33,922 bases of DNA from Candidatus Treponema faecavium (GTDB lineage: Bacteria > Spirochaetota > Spirochaetia > Treponematales > Treponemataceae), in contig DXHG01000103.1 in NCBI GenBank assembly GCA_019113455.1, forward strand, positions 1-33,922. The letters run 5' to 3'. Below, piece by piece: positions 3,262 to 13,195 of the stretch; positions within the stretch are counted from its first letter, which is position 1; every line of letters begins with the position of its first letter. Position numbers and translations under genes: made by a program. The notes under the pieces were generated by a model that made no database searches, had not been told where the DNA came from, and was given only the letters and a program-made list of their open reading frames with translations.

Positions 3262-5253
3262 GTGCGTTTTACATATACCAGCAGGCTATCTGAAACACAG
3301 TATACGCGGCGCGCAGCGCAGGCCGTACGCCTTGTGTGCGCAGTGTTCTTGTGCGCCGCCCTGCCCGCTTTTGCCCAAACGCCGCACAATCCAGGAGAGC
3401 TTTCCGCGCACCTGTATGAACGGTTTACCGATGCCGGTCTGTCCCCTCAAAAACAGCTTCTTGCAGGTCCTTCGTCAGACGGCTTTCCGTTCAATATTGT
3501 GTTTGACACGCAGCCTGATTTCGGCACAGCCGAGCAGGATACCCTTATCATACAAATCTGTCAGGAAGACGCGCTGCCGCTGTTTGACCGGCTGTGCGCG
3601 CTTATAAGCCGCGCGCTGCAGGTGCAGAAACGCGTGCAGATTATCTGCACCGCGCTTGATTATCCCGTACTTCCGCAGCAGAAACAAGAGCCTCGCGGTT
3701 CGCTGCACGCTATTTCCCAGCTTGAAAATCAAAACAATATATGTGCCCTGCTTCTGATTCCCCGCTCAACGCTCTCTGACACTACCCGCCGGACACAGCC
3801 TTTGATTCTGCCCGGGGCAGGCGGTCAGGCATCGCCGCAGTGGCTGCTCGATATGCTGCAATTTTACGGCACGCGCTCATATCTGCTGCTCTACCGTCAA
3901 AACATGATTTCTGCCAATGAGCGCCTCGCCCTTTTTTTGAACAGCAGCATACCGGCGGCAGGCATCGTGTACGACGCTGTTAATCAGGAGCAGACGGCGG
4001 ATATGTTTTCGCATCTGGAGCAGGTTATAAACACATTCGAGATTCCGGACAACGCGCTCTGGGACCGGCACTACGACAGGGTGCCGGTACAGTCTGTCAA
4101 TCTCATTATCCCTGAACACAATCAGGTGCGGCTGTTTATCGTTATTATCACGGTAAGTTTGTTTGTGCTCTGCGGGTTTACGTTTTTGTTCGGCAAAAAT
4201 ATCTATCAGAACACAAAAGACTTTCTGCGCACCTGGTATCTGATTCCCGGCACCATCGCGGCAACGGCGCTCATGCTCAAAGCGGGACAAGCCGTATCGG
4301 GTATGATTTTGCCTGCGTCAACTTCGCCGTTTTTGTTTATCGTATTCAAAATCATTTTTGCCGTGCTGTTTGTTACGCTGTGCTTTATCATTCTGCTTAA
4401 ACTGCATCTGCCTGTTTCGCAGGTGGTGTACGGTGTAATGATGTCAATGACGGCAACGCTCAATATCTTTATTTTTGCCGCATTTGATATATCATTCGTG
4501 TATCTGTTCGCAATAGAATACATCATAGCCGCGATAGCCGGATACGCGCGGCGGTTTGTGCCGCTCGTGGCTGCAGAGATTGCACTCGTGCTGCCGTTTC
4601 TGCCGTATATACGCGATGTTATTGCCTACCCGAACACGGCGTTTCTGGAAAAAGTCGCAGATGCGTCGTTTGCCGGAAATCTGCTGCTCGCCTGTATCCT
4701 GCTGCCCATGCTCATCATGTGGCTTAAGCTGCAGATCCGCATTACGGTCTTTCTGCAGGGAAGGAATATTTCCATCAAGCCCGTTATCGCGATTACCGTG
4801 CTCACGATGATATGCAGCGCGGCGTTTGCGTGGATATATCTGTCGTCGCCGCGGTTTCAGACGCTCACGCAGCAGACATCCCGATTTGCGGCAGTGGAAC
4901 AGGGAAATCCCGAACACTATGAAGCAAGCATCACGGCGTCTGAAACGTTTTTTCTTGAGCTGCGCACCGTGCAGCTCAGCTTTACCGCTTCGGCGCCGAT
5001 TATACGCTGCGATATACACGTTATTTCTGATTCCGGCACGCCGGTATACAGTTCGGATTATCCGATAGCCGTTGATAAACAGCGCGTCTCTTTTCTGCTG
5101 CCTGAGTATCCGCCTGAGCCGCTGCAGATTACCTACACGGCAAACGAGACGGAAGACATGTACGTAAGCGCCGTATTCTATCTGCAAAAAGATGATACGA
5201 CTGCCGCCATGGTGGAAAAGCAGCTCTTTATTCCCGGGAAATCACAGCCATGA
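3262..5253 (+). CDS. Secreted/membrane protein with N-terminal signal and multiple transmembrane segments, spirochaetal hypothetical (GTG start)
   Basis: Signal-like AVRLVCAVFLCAALPAFA; a run of hydrophobic segments in the middle; ATGA overlap with the next ORF. Confidence 0.8.
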   Translation: MRFTYTSRLSETQYTRRAAQAVRLVCAVFLCAALPAFAQTPHNPGELSAHLYERFTDAGLSPQKQLLAGPSSDGFPFNIVFDTQPDFGTAEQDTLIIQICQEDALPLFDRLCALISRALQVQKRVQIICTALDYPVLPQQKQEPRGSLHAISQLENQNNICALLLIPRSTLSDTTRRTQPLILPGAGGQASPQWLLDMLQFYGTRSYLLLYRQNMISANERLALFLNSSIPAAGIVYDAVNQEQTADMFSHLEQVINTFEIPDNALWDRHYDRVPVQSVNLIIPEHNQVRLFIVIITVSLFVLCGFTFLFGKNIYQNTKDFLRTWYLIPGTIAATALMLKAGQAVSGMILPASTSPFLFIVFKIIFAVLFVTLCFIILLKLHLPVSQVVYGVMMSMTATLNIFIFAAFDISFVYLFAIEYIIAAIAGYARRFVPLVAAEIALVLPFLPYIRDVIAYPNTAFLEKVADASFAGNLLLACILLPMLIMWLKLQIRITVFLQGRNISIKPVIAITVLTMICSAAFAWIYLSSPRFQTLTQQTSRFAAVEQGNPEHYEASITASETFFLELRTVQLSFTASAPIIRCDIHVISDSGTPVYSSDYPIAVDKQRVSFLLPEYPPEPLQITYTANETEDMYVSAVFYLQKDDTTAAMVEKQLFIPGKSQP

Positions 5254-6404
5254 CGTGGTTTGTGCATGTCGATCTTGACGCGTTTTACGCTTCGGTTGAG
5301 CAGCTTGATCATCCGGAACTCAAAGGAAAACCGGTTATTGTCGGCGGGCTTCCCGGCTCCCGCCGCGGCGTTGTGTCTACGGCGTCATACGAGGCGCGCG
5401 CATACGGCGTACATTCTGCGATGCCGATTGGTCAGGCGTACCGGCTGTGTCCCGACGGTATTTATCTTCCGGTGCGGATGAAGCGGTACCAGCAGAAATC
5501 GGCGGAAATCATGCGCATATTCAGCGAGTTTTCTCCCGATGTACAGCAGATATCCGTGGACGAGGCGTTTGTCGATATCAGCGGCACTGAACGGCTGTTC
5601 GGTCCGCCGGAGCAGACAGCGCAGGCGATACAGACGGCGGTGCGTGAGCGGACAGGCCTTACGGCGTCTATAGGGCTTGCGTCAAATAAATATCTGGCAA
5701 AAATTGCTTCCGGCATGTCCAAGCCGAACGGTTTTTGCATGATTCCCGCAGGCTCCGAATGTGCGTTTATGCAGCGGCTGCCGCTTAACAAAGTATGGGG
5801 CGTCGGAGAAAAAACGCTTGCCAAGCTGCACAAGCTGGGGCTGCATACGACTGCGGATGTTTATAACACATCGTTTGAGCTTTTGGCAAAAACGCTGGGC
5901 ACTGCCTGCGCGAATTTCCTGTTTGCAGCCGTCCGCGGGCAAAACGCTGCTGTATTCAGTGAAGAAGCCAAAACGCACTCGGTAAGCGCGGAGTCAACCT
6001 ATGAGTATGACCTCTGTGAACCGTATGCGATAGAAACGGCGCTCATGGAATTATGCTGCACTGTCATGTTCCGCATGTATACGGAAGGCTGGATAAGCAG
6101 GACGGTGCAGGTAAAAATACGGTATGACGATTTCTCCACGGTCAGCGTGCAGGAAACATCGCAGCAGATTATAGCCAATACCGAGGATATGTTTGCCCGC
6201 GCAAAAACGCTGCTGCACAAAAAATACAGCGGAGGCAGCATCAGGCTTTTAGGGGCAGCTGCGCTCAATCTTGAACGCAGCGAAGTTCTGCGTCAGGGGG
6301 AGCTATTCGATTTCGGCAGCGCAAAAGCGCAGAAACTGGAGCAGGCTGTTTTTAATCTCAAGCAGAAAAACCCCAGGCTGAAAATTACCAAGGCGCGGCT
6401 GCTG
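5250..6404 (+). other. Y-family polymerase (DinB) domain within the fused ORF
   Basis: DLDAFYASVEQ, SYEARAYGVHSAMP, SVDEAFVDISG, GLASNKYLAKIAS, WGVGEKTLAKL and a little-finger region ending KITKARLL. Confidence 0.95.
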
Positions 6405-9400
6405 CAGGATCTCTGCGTGCTGTTTCTGCTGCCGGCGCTGTATTTTTTTTGTTCGCAGCAGCCGCTTGCAGCAGAAACGATGCCTGAAACTGCGGCTTCG
6501 CACGGCGGAGCGGCGGCGCTTACGTTTCAGCTGCCGCCGCCATCGCCTGATACGGATGGCGCGCTCTTTTCGTATTCGCTGTTTGACACCGACATAGAGT
6601 TTTTTATGCAGGGCTACTGGGACACGGAACTGACCGGCTCGCTTTCGTTTTCGTTCGGCGGCGGCAGTGATTTTGCCGTATCCACGGCCATGCCGGTCTT
6701 TAAGCAGGAAGTTGATTTATCCGTGTGGCTCATGCTTAATAAACAGTGGTATTTTGAAGCGGCATTTGCCGAACAGTTTGAAAAAAACACCTTTGCGCTC
6801 GGCTATACGGGAGAAAACACGCTGCGTTCCGTCCGCATTGCAAACAGAGGAATACTCTTTCCTTCGTTTTATCCTGCGGACGCGCTCAACCGGGGCATAG
6901 GCGGCGGAGACAATCAGGCTCCCGGAATCAGCGCCTCGTTTGCCGGAAAGAACTGGAGAGCTGACGCCGCAGTCAGATATGAGGCTCTTACGGCGCATGA
7001 AAAGATATTTTACGGTTCAAACGAAGTGTCCGAACAGACAGTGCAGCTTACTCAGTGGGAACGCGGCAGGCTGTTTTTTTTGCCGTCAGTGCAGACTGCT
7101 GCATCAGTAACGGGCGTGTATGTTGAATCCGAAAACGGCACGCTGCGCGACCGCGAGGGGCGGACATACCGCAAGCTTGATACATCTGAATATCAGATAG
7201 CGCCGCAGCGCGCGCAGCTTGTGCTTGCAAAACAGGCGCTGATAACCGACGGCGCACATAAAAGAACGGCTGCTGTGCTGTTACGTTTTTCAGACGCGGC
7301 GGCCATACAGACGCTCAAAACGGAGCTTGGCACCTTCTCCGACGCAGGCGGCAATTCGTTTCTGAGCGATGTGCAGCAGCTTTTTTTGCAGGGCGGCATA
7401 GACAATATAGCGGCGTACTCGTACGGGGCGCTGTATCATGACAGCCCTGCAGGAGACCCCAGCGGGAACAGCACAGACGGTTTTTTTACCAACATCTTGG
7501 GAACGCAGATGCTCGTTATTCAGCATCCGGCAGGGTTTTCGCCGTTCAGCGGCGCATACCGGTATGCCAGCACCGTGCAATCGGCAGATGAAGTACAGCT
7601 TGTCTCGCAATCAACCGATACCCGTATAGAGCCGTACGCCGCCGCAACGGCAGACAGTATGCAGTTCGTTTCGGAAGATTTTCTTACGGCGCAGCCAACG
7701 ACATATATAGAAGTATACAGCACGGAGCTTGACGGCTCTGACGGAACGCAGGCGGCGGTCAGATTTCCGCTCGCCGCGCGCTATCCACAGTATTATTTAC
7801 AGTCTGCGTCATCGGTTCCCGCAGGTGAGGCAGACGCTGTCATAAAGATACGCAGCTACTCGCCTGTAGATCAATACTATATCGGCACGGACGCCGCGGA
7901 GGGGACTGTTTCCGCATACAGGAACGGAATTCGCGACAGCGGCGCGGCATACGATGCGGAATCGGGCGTTGTTACGCTTTCCGCTGCGGTATCGGCAATG
8001 GACCGCATACGCATCGTGTGGTACGAAGACAGCAATACCGCGGATACCGGCGCAATAGCTGCGGCAGCCGGCATACAGTTTTTTCCGTTCGATGGTTTTT
8101 CACTGGCGGCTTCTCTCACGTCGCGCTGGGCGTTTTCTCCTCACAAGCAGTTTGCAGACGCGGAGTCTCAGACGCAGGGGTTTGCAGCGCTTGCCGGAGC
8201 GGCGGCATATGAAAAAAACGGCTTTAAGGCTGCAAATACGATTGGCCTGACTGTCGATATGCAGAATACAAGCGGCTATTACCGTATCCTGGGCATGGAT
8301 GATCATGTGCCGCAAACAGCCTATTTGACGCAAAATGCGGCGTTCAACCTGCCTGACGGCTTTATTCCGTCTATTGAACAGGTAAAAGGCGGCGACGCGC
8401 CCAATCTTGCTGCACATATATCGCTTATTGAAGATATGCCGGGAATTACCGATGAGTATATCACCGGCTACGCGGCGGTGCTTGCGTATGATCTGCCGGA
8501 GACGCAAACCGGCGCGCCTGTATCATGGACGGCGCGCTCAATAAGTCTCGGGAATGCCGCCGCACAGCTTGCCTCGGCATCGCAGTTCAGTATTGCATTA
8601 AAAGATATCGGCAGCAATCGCTATGATGTGTATTTGCAGCTCGGCGTGCCTGATGAAGACAGCAGCGCATTTGAGTCAAAGGCTGCTGTACCGACCTGGA
8701 AAATAGGCGGGCTTACGGATACCGATATATCGCCCGGCGTTGAGCAGGCGTTTATCCCTGCGCAGATATCCGAACAGGGCGGCTGGCAGACCGTTACGGT
8801 AAATCTTACTGACGCAGACCGCGCACGGCTTGCGGAACATCACGCTGCGCGCCTCATTATCGTTAATTCCGGCGCGGCCTTACCGATACAGGGAGAGCTC
8901 CTCGCGGGCCCCTATGAAATAACGACGCAGGGATTCTCGGTTAAAACGACAAATGCGGAGGCTGCAGTCAGACAGACGCGGGACAATTCTCTGCCTGATG
9001 ACATCCGCAAGCGTTTTAATCCGGACAGCGACAATGCCGTACAGCAGATTTCGTGGACGATGCAGAGCGGTGCCGAAAGTAAAATCACGCTGCAGCAATA
9101 CATAGCGGAAGTCGATATTTCGCCGTATCGTATGCTACATATGTATGTGCGGCTTGCCGGTGAGAACCTAAGTTCATCACCGGCTTTTTCATTTTCGCTT
9201 GACCGGCATACAGCAGACATTGTTTCTGTAGACGTTGCGGCAGGACAGCTTGCGCTGCACGGCGGCTGGCAGCTTGTATCCGTAAATCTGGATACGCAAA
9301 AAGTATACATAGACGGCGCGGAACTTACCGCACATGCCTATTCCGTGTCATGTATGCTGCATGACACTGCGGTGCGCTTTTCTTTTTCGGCAACGCCGAC

Positions 9401-11156
9401 AGTAAGCGGGACGCTCTACATCGATGAAGTATATCTGTCAGAAACCAGTCCGCAGTATCTTGTTGAAGACTCGTTTGAAGTATCGTGGCAGAAAGACGGC
9501 GTTATAGCCGCGGTAAAAGACTTTGCGCTCCTTGAAGACGCGGAAGTAAAAACAGAAGGCACTGTTTCTGTAATGCTTCCGACAGCGCATATTGAGCCTG
9601 ACGCCGCATTTACTGGCAAAGTATCCGCAAGCGTTACCGTTGCGGGCCTGCAGCTTTCAGGGGACGCCGCACATGCAAGCGGTTCCGACATGATTATATC
9701 GGACGCGGGACACGCCGCCGCAACAACCTCGTCAAATCCGCTGTTCCGCTATATACAGTTTTCCGAACAATACCGCTATTCGGAAACGAGCGCGGCAAAA
9801 CAGAACGCGGCAGGCGTTACGCTTGCTCCGCTCAATATACCGGTAACGCTTACCGCCGAAACGCAGGCAAAAACATCACTCTGGCAGACACAGCAGAAAA
9901 CGCAAAGCAATCTGTATATCACTATCCCCTTTTCTCCGCTTGACTATACTATTGCGGCACAGGCTGCTGTGTTTCAGGAAACAGCCGCGGTATGGGAGCC
10001 CGACGGCGCAAACACAGAGACATACGGAGAAAGCTATCTCAGACTGTCAAAACTCTCATTTTCACGCGGAGAGGCGGCCGCCGCTTCACGTGAATTTTCT
10101 TTTAATCTCACAAACGCGATAGTATGCAATACTATTGACTTTATTCCTCAGGCATCATTCAGCGCCGACGGACAGTATGCCAATACGACAGAAACGCTGT
10201 ATACTCATTCCGCGGAATTTCAGTTTTTGTTTCCGTTTGCCGTTCAGGGCAATCAATTCAGCATCAGCTGGCAAAAAGAAACAGATACCGTGCATCAGAC
10301 AGCAGCAGGCGGAAACTATGCCGTTGATATTTCTGAGTTATTTGACACGCTCGGCAGACAGGACTGGTTTTTTGCAGCGCTGCCCTTTTATGATATGTTT
10401 GATGCACAGCTTCCGCAGAAAATAGCGGCTTTTACTAAAAAATACGCATATGCAGCAAACGGCGCATACAATACCACATACCGCTTTTCATGGCAGCGAA
10501 ATATTTCAGCCAATCGGTACAGTTTTTTTATACCGACCGCAGCAGAAATCGCAGTTTCACGAAACATCCGTACAGCGCAGAACATTGCCGATGCGTACCA
10601 GACAAAACTGGGAGCGTCATTCGCGGCGTTTAACTGCTTCGGTTCATTCGGCATACATCCTGTTTTTTCCTGGTATCAGGAAGATGAGTATATGTCTTCT
10701 TATTATATCGGCATCAAAATACCGCGCAGCGATCCGAGTCTTGTTTCTCTGGTATTTTCAGGCTACGCACAGGCAGTGTTTTATATCGAGCCGCAGGCGG
10801 CGCTTAAAGCAGCGATTGAGTTTCAGTTTGAGGAGCTGTCAACTTGGAACGGACAATGCACCGCGATATGGGAACGCACCAGCACTTTTTCAGCGATTAC
10901 GGCGCTTATACGCGCCGTCAGTATTCCGTTTTATGAAAAGATACGCGCCGCAAACCGAACAGACAGCATAAACTACGCCATTGACTGTACCGATTCCGCA
11001 ATAGCACACACCATAGTCTATGACCATAAACTGACGCTGCAGCTTGGTGCGTATTTTTCTGTCTCGGCGTCATTGGGCGCGGAACTCATTCTTGAACACA
11101 AAAAAGCCGCCGTACTGACGCTTCTTGGCAGTATCGGCGGCACCGTTATTTTCTAG
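5250..11156 (+). CDS. dinB: Single uninterrupted 1968-codon ORF: DNA polymerase IV followed in frame by a signal-peptide-like segment and a large envelope/outer-membrane protein
   Basis: No stop between MTWFVHVDLDAFYASVEQ...KITKARLL (Pol IV), LCVLFLLPALYFFCSQQPLAA (signal-like) and the downstream beta-rich protein. Whether it is translated as one product is unknown. Confidence 0.85.
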   Translation: MTWFVHVDLDAFYASVEQLDHPELKGKPVIVGGLPGSRRGVVSTASYEARAYGVHSAMPIGQAYRLCPDGIYLPVRMKRYQQKSAEIMRIFSEFSPDVQQISVDEAFVDISGTERLFGPPEQTAQAIQTAVRERTGLTASIGLASNKYLAKIASGMSKPNGFCMIPAGSECAFMQRLPLNKVWGVGEKTLAKLHKLGLHTTADVYNTSFELLAKTLGTACANFLFAAVRGQNAAVFSEEAKTHSVSAESTYEYDLCEPYAIETALMELCCTVMFRMYTEGWISRTVQVKIRYDDFSTVSVQETSQQIIANTEDMFARAKTLLHKKYSGGSIRLLGAAALNLERSEVLRQGELFDFGSAKAQKLEQAVFNLKQKNPRLKITKARLLQDLCVLFLLPALYFFCSQQPLAAETMPETAASHGGAAALTFQLPPPSPDTDGALFSYSLFDTDIEFFMQGYWDTELTGSLSFSFGGGSDFAVSTAMPVFKQEVDLSVWLMLNKQWYFEAAFAEQFEKNTFALGYTGENTLRSVRIANRGILFPSFYPADALNRGIGGGDNQAPGISASFAGKNWRADAAVRYEALTAHEKIFYGSNEVSEQTVQLTQWERGRLFFLPSVQTAASVTGVYVESENGTLRDREGRTYRKLDTSEYQIAPQRAQLVLAKQALITDGAHKRTAAVLLRFSDAAAIQTLKTELGTFSDAGGNSFLSDVQQLFLQGGIDNIAAYSYGALYHDSPAGDPSGNSTDGFFTNILGTQMLVIQHPAGFSPFSGAYRYASTVQSADEVQLVSQSTDTRIEPYAAATADSMQFVSEDFLTAQPTTYIEVYSTELDGSDGTQAAVRFPLAARYPQYYLQSASSVPAGEADAVIKIRSYSPVDQYYIGTDAAEGTVSAYRNGIRDSGAAYDAESGVVTLSAAVSAMDRIRIVWYEDSNTADTGAIAAAAGIQFFPFDGFSLAASLTSRWAFSPHKQFADAESQTQGFAALAGAAAYEKNGFKAANTIGLTVDMQNTSGYYRILGMDDHVPQTAYLTQNAAFNLPDGFIPSIEQVKGGDAPNLAAHISLIEDMPGITDEYITGYAAVLAYDLPETQTGAPVSWTARSISLGNAAAQLASASQFSIALKDIGSNRYDVYLQLGVPDEDSSAFESKAAVPTWKIGGLTDTDISPGVEQAFIPAQISEQGGWQTVTVNLTDADRARLAEHHAARLIIVNSGAALPIQGELLAGPYEITTQGFSVKTTNAEAAVRQTRDNSLPDDIRKRFNPDSDNAVQQISWTMQSGAESKITLQQYIAEVDISPYRMLHMYVRLAGENLSSSPAFSFSLDRHTADIVSVDVAAGQLALHGGWQLVSVNLDTQKVYIDGAELTAHAYSVSCMLHDTAVRFSFSATPTVSGTLYIDEVYLSETSPQYLVEDSFEVSWQKDGVIAAVKDFALLEDAEVKTEGTVSVMLPTAHIEPDAAFTGKVSASVTVAGLQLSGDAAHASGSDMIISDAGHAAATTSSNPLFRYIQFSEQYRYSETSAAKQNAAGVTLAPLNIPVTLTAETQAKTSLWQTQQKTQSNLYITIPFSPLDYTIAAQAAVFQETAAVWEPDGANTETYGESYLRLSKLSFSRGEAAAASREFSFNLTNAIVCNTIDFIPQASFSADGQYANTTETLYTHSAEFQFLFPFAVQGNQFSISWQKETDTVHQTAAGGNYAVDISELFDTLGRQDWFFAALPFYDMFDAQLPQKIAAFTKKYAYAANGAYNTTYRFSWQRNISANRYSFFIPTAAEIAVSRNIRTAQNIADAYQTKLGASFAAFNCFGSFGIHPVFSWYQEDEYMSSYYIGIKIPRSDPSLVSLVFSGYAQAVFYIEPQAALKAAIEFQFEELSTWNGQCTAIWERTSTFSAITALIRAVSIPFYEKIRAANRTDSINYAIDCTDSAIAHTIVYDHKLTLQLGAYFSVSASLGAELILEHKKAAVLTLLGSIGGTVIF
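6405..11156 (+). other. Envelope/outer-membrane protein region of the fused ORF (about 1580 aa), possibly with a private GTG start at 6417
   Basis: Signal-like hydrophobic stretch then long alternating beta-rich sequence (GYWDTELTGSLSFSFGGGSDFAV..., C-terminal LTLQLGAYFSVSASLGAELILE). Confidence 0.7.
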
Positions 11157-11167
11157 CTGTGCTGCTG

Positions 11168-13195
11168 TTACTGCAGCGGCGCAAAATAACCGGTTTCGTC
11201 TCTGCCTGAGCGGTTAAGCAGATACGTTTCTATCTCTACCGGCAGATACGCGGTTCCAAAGTTAGTAGACAGCCGTGAGGTATATGAAAGCTGATATAAA
11301 CCGTTCGGCAGCTCAAGCAAATCATTCACAATCATACCCAGTCCCTGCGGTCGATAGACGTAATACTCCTCGCCGCTCGTGCGCCGTGTTAAGTAATCAA
11401 GCTCTTCAGGAAGCGCCTGCTGTTTAATATTGATCGTAGAAAAAGGAATACCGTTATTATTCATATACGCTGTAAGATCTGAAAGGCTGTAATCGGTAAA
11501 CGCGTTTTCAGACACAACACCGCTCGTAATATAAATAATCGCGCGCTTCTTTTCTGCATTGATCAAATCGTTTGCCGCAAACCTCACCCCTAAATCGATA
11601 CGGCACGCATCGGAAACAGGATTTTTAAGGCGGGAAAGGTCAAAGTTATCCGCCTGCACCGGAGGACCTTCATACTCAAGCGTGGGAATAGCTCCGGCAG
11701 ACACAATACGCAGCGTGCCGTTTCCATTCATCGACGTGCTGATATCACGCACGGCCGTTTCTACCGCTTCTTTTAATGCTGTCGTTTCCGGCGAACGGTC
11801 AATAACAATCGTAATATCGCACACCGTATTTTCAGACGCTGCTCCGGTCAGCTGCTGATTTTCCACAGGAGCTTTATTTTCCGTAATAAAGAAGTTTGCC
11901 GCTTTAAGACCGACAACCGGTTCGCGGCTCCGGTTTTCTACCCTGACTTCAAGTATCACATTCGGAAAATCATCAGCTATCACCCGTTCAATCTGAACAA
12001 ATAAACCGCCGACAAGCTCCGTCATCCGCGACATAACATAAATTTCGTTTGTTACAAAGTCAGACGCAAGGATATTGCCGTTTTTATCAGGTGCTGCGCA
12101 CATGATGCGGGACGGCGCGTTGCCGGTTCGGGTGTTTTCAAACACAGCCCCGTTAGCCGTATCGACTGTTACAATGCGCTTGTTGTCGGCAACGATTAAG
12201 TACCTGCCGATTGCCTTCATTGCTTCCGGTCGGGTAAATGTCTGAGGCGGCACAACAATGCCTTCGTAATTGCCGGATAAGTCAAATGAATAGATTGCGC
12301 CGTCTATGGCATCAGCAACATACACCACGTTTTCAATAACCGCAATACCGGCAGGCGCGGTAAATCCGTCAAAATCATCCGTCTTCTGACCAAAAGAAAA
12401 GAGAGGCGTTCCGGCGCTGTCAAACACCACTACGCGGGCATTGCCAAAATCCGTAACAAAAATATTGCCGTACAAATCGACAGCAATATACTGCGGTCCG
12501 ACCAACTGCCCGCTGCCGATACCGGTAGTGCCAAATGATTTAATGTACCGGCCGTCTGCAGACAGCTGCGAAATCCGGTTCCCAGCATATTCAGTAACAA
12601 GCAGGGAACCGTCAGCACAGCACGCAATATCCATTGGGCGGTCAAAACCCTGCAGCGGACCTCCCGTTCTGAACACGACAGAACCATTAATATCAAGTTT
12701 CAAGAGCTCGTTTGAACTATAGGCAACGACCCAAAAAGTACCGTCGTCGTTCGGAAGCACCGACGCAGGCTGCACAAAAATCGTATCCGTTTCCGTTGTT
12801 CCGGGAAAACTGCCCGCTTCGGTATACGGCACAAGATATTTATTAAAATCAACGGAAAGACGCCTGTTCTGCACAATATCGATTTTATTCTGCAGCAAAA
12901 GCCCGCCGTAATCATTGGCGGCGGCCATCTGCCAGTTTTCAAGCGCCGCGCCTTCTATGCCCGCATGGTAATACGCTTTGCCAAGCCAGTCCAAATACAG
13001 ATTGTTGTCAGGCGTATAAGAAAGCGCCCGTTCAAACAGCACTATTGCGTCATTGAATGCGCCCCGGTAAAACGACTGAACGCCTCTTCTGAAATCATCC
13101 TGCGCAAATCCTTCATTTGCCGGACGCACAGTCTGAGCCGAAAACGGCACTATACAGCAGGCTATCAGCAATACTGCAACATATATACGTTTCAA
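11168..13195 (-). CDS. Secreted TPR plus NHL/6-bladed propeller protein with C-terminal vWA-like domain
   Basis: N-terminal signal; TPR (DFRRGVQSFYRGAFNDAIVLFERAL); NHL-type repeats (GSGQLVGPQYIAVDLYGNIFVTDFGNARVVVFD); vWA-like DITIVIDRSPETTALKEAVETAV. Confidence 0.85.
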   Translation of the reverse strand: MKRIYVAVLLIACCIVPFSAQTVRPANEGFAQDDFRRGVQSFYRGAFNDAIVLFERALSYTPDNNLYLDWLGKAYYHAGIEGAALENWQMAAANDYGGLLLQNKIDIVQNRRLSVDFNKYLVPYTEAGSFPGTTETDTIFVQPASVLPNDDGTFWVVAYSSNELLKLDINGSVVFRTGGPLQGFDRPMDIACCADGSLLVTEYAGNRISQLSADGRYIKSFGTTGIGSGQLVGPQYIAVDLYGNIFVTDFGNARVVVFDSAGTPLFSFGQKTDDFDGFTAPAGIAVIENVVYVADAIDGAIYSFDLSGNYEGIVVPPQTFTRPEAMKAIGRYLIVADNKRIVTVDTANGAVFENTRTGNAPSRIMCAAPDKNGNILASDFVTNEIYVMSRMTELVGGLFVQIERVIADDFPNVILEVRVENRSREPVVGLKAANFFITENKAPVENQQLTGAASENTVCDITIVIDRSPETTALKEAVETAVRDISTSMNGNGTLRIVSAGAIPTLEYEGPPVQADNFDLSRLKNPVSDACRIDLGVRFAANDLINAEKKRAIIYITSGVVSENAFTDYSLSDLTAYMNNNGIPFSTINIKQQALPEELDYLTRRTSGEEYYVYRPQGLGMIVNDLLELPNGLYQLSYTSRLSTNFGTAYLPVEIETYLLNRSGRDETGYFAPLQ

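Follow-up and report, generated by a model that had tools for sequence, protein, structure and literature searches.

A DNA polymerase IV gene fused in frame to an internal signal peptide and a predicted SprA-like envelope barrel in Treponema-like spirochaetes

The window, a stretch of 33,922 nucleotides from "Candidatus Treponema faecavium" (contig DXHG01000103.1), contains a single open reading frame on the forward strand, from 5250 to 11156, that runs for 1968 codons and is free of stops up to its end. The frame encodes, in order, a full DNA polymerase IV (DinB), a signal peptide, and an envelope protein of ~1,550 amino acids, with no stop between the DinB part and the signal peptide (Table 1). 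A first-pass annotation, made without database searches, had described both a frame open from the polymerase start to 11156 and a polymerase complete to KITKARLL followed by a hydrophobic segment; both claims held, the latter on the basis of Pfam and NCBIfam matches together with the sequence. The gene immediately upstream overlaps the start of dinB as ATGA, and its product has no Pfam or NCBIfam match. In nearly all of the loci with enough flanking sequence, dinB is directly preceded by a relative of this gene, and the upstream gene probably belongs to the same operon as the dinB fusion. Downstream, genes for an NHL/TPR protein and a TPR protein recur on the other strand among the loci, and in the window a SurE gene lies next to them. 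The conserved neighbor at 11168-13195, also on the other strand, contains NHL repeats and TPR and shows a weak match to ScyF-like proteins.

Table 1. Features of the fused locus, in window coordinates
Feature	Position	Strand	Description
Upstream partner gene	3262..5253	+	663 aa; signal peptide and several membrane helices, judged by eye
Pol IV (DinB) part	5250..6398	+	Catalytic core, little finger, clamp motif, and C-terminal helix ending KITKAR; Pfam basis
Clamp motif	6294-6314	+	QGELFDF, inside the DinB part
Internal signal peptide	6381..6473	+	n-region KITKAR; h-region LLQDLCVLFLLPALYFFC; probable cleavage between PLAA and E
Candidate separate start	6417..6419	+	GTG; AGGA at 6406-6409, 7 bases upstream
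Mature envelope part	6474..11156	+	Stop codon included; predicted giant beta-barrel with SprA-like fold; model basis

Full-length matches to the fusion were found among 61 relatives, with 33 to 44% identity across the entire chain, and many more turned up among 246 genomes of the family. Among 143 loci that were read, 93 were fused in one frame, 22 consisted of separate genes, 20 contained dinB only, and 8 contained only the envelope gene or were cut. The 93 fused loci represent 93 species of the Treponema-like family in 10 genera (10 genus codes), including the complete chromosomes of Treponema ruminis RU1 and T. parvum ATCC 700773 as well as T. porcinum, T. bryantii (three records), and Treponema sp. 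JC4 and C6A8. The fusion occurs in many gut and mouth spirochaetes. Comparing the junction in close relatives, as the first-pass annotation had proposed, thus returned the same in-frame fusion in 93 species. The fusion is real and far beyond chance; an artefact is excluded because it recurs in so many species, including complete isolate genomes. No description of a dinB-envelope fusion was found in the literature searched.

The Pol IV part, residues 1 to ~386, matches PF00817 (3.8e-54), PF11799 (6.5e-19), and PF11798, and its NCBIfam matches range from 1e-97 to 3e-100. The criteria for Pol IV membership are met, namely, an IMS domain with catalytic Asp/Glu residues and steric gate, followed by the little finger and clamp motif. 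Residues D8, D10, F12, D104, E105, and K151 are invariant in all of the fused loci (93/93) and in all of the unfused relatives (41/41), and the Q, L, and F of the beta-clamp motif are each conserved in at least 89 of the 93. By its catalytic residues the DinB part stays intact, but no stop ahead of the signal peptide would release it as a free, soluble polymerase. In genomes G000, G004, and G140, the latter two of which are single-contig genomes, the fusion is the sole Y-family polymerase detected. Genome G207 carries three further Y-family polymerases besides the fusion.

The hydrophobic sequence QDLCVLFLLPALYFFCSQQPLAAE follows KITKARLL directly, without a gap, and the positively charged n-region of the signal peptide, KITKAR, consists of DinB's own last residues. 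Most features of a Sec signal are present (positive n-region, hydrophobic core, and small residues at -3 and -1), but the criterion of N-terminal position is not met, as the signal starts ~380 residues into the frame. A hydrophobic core is found at the equivalent position in nearly all of the fused relatives, and a site resembling those cut by signal peptidase follows it in 78 of the 90 fused loci (junction counts use 90 or 92 of the 93). Linker length differs among species, mostly between 0 and 24 residues, and is always in frame. One fused DinB, in genome G189, has an exceptionally long linker ahead of the signal peptide. In 19/90 fused loci the linker beyond KAR carries no net positive charge, and the n-region must therefore come from the end of DinB. 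Across 19 close pairs, dN/dS was 0.36 for the linker and core, 0.28 for the end of the signal, 0.07 for DinB, and 0.18 for the envelope part; the junction evolves as protein, at a dN/dS of about 0.3.

The envelope part gave nothing useful in sequence searches against Pfam, NCBIfam, or the PDB. It ends in a C-terminal F, as in outer-membrane barrels. AlphaFold models of its two halves, for which 39 and 35 sequences were aligned, had mean pLDDT values of 81 and 84 and contained many long strands, with the stretch after the signal disordered. SprA was the top Foldseek match in the PDB for both halves (E values of 3.3e-17 and 4.5e-7; probability, 1.00), and LptD was second for the C-terminal half. 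The TM-scores of the SprA matches were only 0.28 to 0.34; the models represent halves of a large barrel. The envelope part thus resembles SprA (PDB 8gl6, 8gl8, and 6h3i; PMC10994853) as a giant beta-barrel, whereas it differs in lacking a sequence match to PDB chains or to the SprA_N profile PF14349, and in its length (~1,550 residues versus more than 2,000). PF14349 had no match in G000 or in 30 envelope sequences and was above the cut-off in none of 150 genomes of the phylum, though the control genomes gave no match either; a search for GldM was also negative, but its control was likewise silent. Full-length matches to the PorV family were found in 5 of 5 genomes tested, at 56 to 82 bits, below the 90-bit cut-off. 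One of these barrels, in G000 (C185:9391-10323; FadL-like), gives a full-length match to NF033709 at 68.8 bits, also below the cut-off, and could conceivably be a partner of the SprA-like barrel. The barrel fold is a model prediction, which places the envelope part as SprA-like in fold and not as a member of the SprA family, and secretion has not been shown. The SprA papers examined name no spirochaetes as carriers, and no report of type 9 secretion in spirochaetes was found.

In unfused sister lineages, dinB and the envelope gene are adjacent in different frames, and in 11 of 14 close separate pairs the ATG of the envelope gene overlaps the TGA of dinB as ATGA. The fusion therefore arose by a frameshift within the overlap and not by loss of a TAG stop, and the proposal of a TAG-to-CAG change at 6405-6407 in the first-pass annotation is not supported; a single indel in the overlap would suffice. 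On the DinB tree, the fused state needs 15 changes, at least 7 of them forced by well-supported branches, versus 35.5 with shuffled labels, and 92 of the 114 rows on a single branch are fused. The fusion has therefore been gained or lost several times, though it is strongly clustered. Given some losses and re-splits within the lineage, it is tolerated rather than indispensable. Two loci scored as separate (L142 and L144) resemble fusions that a frameshift or an N gap has interrupted. A genome of the same genus (G001) has KARLLKDIFS, a stop, and then in-frame hydrophobic sequence, with the barrel gone, an apparent relic of the fusion. In G014, DinB ends in KARFFIKLFAAAVLPFLQFIGVPAVF and a stop, giving a signal-like hydrophobic tail, and no barrel gene was found there. 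In G230, dinB and the barrel gene are adjacent on opposite strands, in a branch that has fused relatives. The fused locus of G020 sits on a long branch outside the main fused branch and is possibly an independent fusion.

The reading that we favor, with a probability of roughly 0.72, is that the locus is a long-conserved gene fusion making one polyprotein with an internal signal, which is cut afterwards. The first-pass annotation had listed a genuine, perhaps processed fusion as one of its options; the fusion is supported, whereas the processing is inferred. DinB would be translated first and would fold in the cytoplasm. KITKAR-LL would then lead into a cleavable signal that engages Sec from within the chain in type II fashion, with its N-terminal side in and its C-terminal side out. 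Signal peptidase I would cut after the signal, and the barrel part would cross to the outer membrane. DinB would stay behind on the cytoplasmic side and would keep the signal peptide as its hydrophobic C-terminal tail, at least until another protease trims it. This course of export and cleavage is likely because the core is short, because signal-peptidase-like sites are so frequent after it, and because G000 encodes both signal peptidase I and an M50 intramembrane protease. All of the steps after translation (Sec insertion, cleavage, localization, and the membrane tail of DinB) are inferred; there are no protein-level data, and neither a junction peptide nor cleavage has been seen.

Parts of this scheme have parallels in known systems. 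FbcH of Bradyrhizobium japonicum is a polyprotein of cytochrome b and cytochrome c1 in which the second protein has a cleaved internal signal peptide. Like the fusion, it is one bacterial gene that yields two proteins with an internal signal peptide cut in the second, but both of its products belong to one membrane complex, whereas the fusion starts with a soluble DNA polymerase. At the hepatitis C virus core-E1 junction, the signal peptide of an envelope protein is joined to the end of a cytosolic protein that binds nucleic acid, the core protein, which keeps it as an anchor until it is trimmed (PMC5402940). The likeness lies in a signal peptidase cut that leaves the signal on the first product; the viral case takes place at the eukaryotic ER and is unrelated by descent. 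Among polymerases, UmuC, ImuB, and PolY also have a polymerase core and clamp motif followed by added C-terminal sequence (PMC6511836), but their extensions are cytoplasmic interaction motifs, and that paper mentions neither signal peptides nor spirochaetes.

The strongest of the alternatives, though an unlikely one, is separate synthesis, in which ribosomes restart inside the end of dinB, for example, at GTG 6417, and read-through yields the fusion as a by-product or as the source of DinB. In its favor, the sister lineages have separate, coupled starts, 39 of the 90 fused loci contain at least one start codon between KAR and the end of the hydrophobic core, and the window itself has the GTG and, at a spacing favorable for ribosome binding, the AGGA. 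The first-pass annotation had suggested this start, and both elements are present as it described, but the start is not conserved in the fused relatives, and a signal peptide begun there would have no positive charge before its core. No ATG, GTG, or TTG occurs between KAR and the hydrophobic start in 62 of 92 loci or from KAR through the core in 51 of 90. About 65 startless loci would be expected by chance, and the shortfall arises because the core is rich in Leu and Val; start codons at the junction are neither avoided nor clearly kept. In 35/90 loci, the closest in-frame start upstream is 40 codons or more away from the core, within DinB. Starts with a Shine-Dalgarno match of at least 4 are found at 17 of 92 junctions versus 5 to 24 of 91 to 92 in control windows and so are not enriched; at the true dinB start a ribosome-binding match is found in 56 of 82. 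The evidence is mostly against separate initiation of the envelope protein. It remains possible that GTG 6417 serves as an additional start in the window, and codon counting cannot exclude noncanonical starts such as CTG or ATT. Even if separate synthesis occurred, the absence of a stop means that DinB could be made only as the fusion.

Two further alternatives to the cut polyprotein are very unlikely. The chain could remain uncut, as a two-compartment protein with DinB tethered across the periplasm to the outer-membrane barrel. The single reading frame and the disordered stretch modeled after the signal, which could span some distance, are consistent with this, but the cleavage-like sites following most signals and a core as short as those of cleavable signals argue against it. 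Alternatively, slippage on homopolymers at the junction could yield some barrel-free DinB. The first-pass annotation had pointed to a T8 run near 6442-6449, which is present one base further on (6443-6450), and runs of at least 7 bases occur more often at the junction (23/90) than in control windows (107/898). Most fused loci lack such a run, however, and the excess fits a signal peptide rich in Phe, Leu, and Lys. Finally, a sequencing or assembly error that removed a stop, a third option of the first-pass annotation, finds support in the fragmentation of the window's genome (245 contigs) but is excluded by the 93 species that share the fusion.

The polymerase-barrel fusion breaks the usual rule that proteins of different compartments are encoded apart, and yet ten genera retain it. 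As a natural test case, it could show how bacterial Sec copes with a signal peptide that is preceded by a large folded domain, and it prompts one to ask whether these organisms have a membrane-tethered Pol IV. It also points to a SprA-like barrel in spirochaetes. A bolder reading, which we hold to be rather short of an even bet, is that this whole spirochaete lineage produces Pol IV solely as the N-terminal portion of a secreted polyprotein, in a one-to-one ratio to a SprA-like outer-membrane translocon, and that the spent signal peptide leaves the mutagenic polymerase tethered to the inner membrane. If that reading is true, the envelope part would be the first SprA-like translocon described in spirochaetes.
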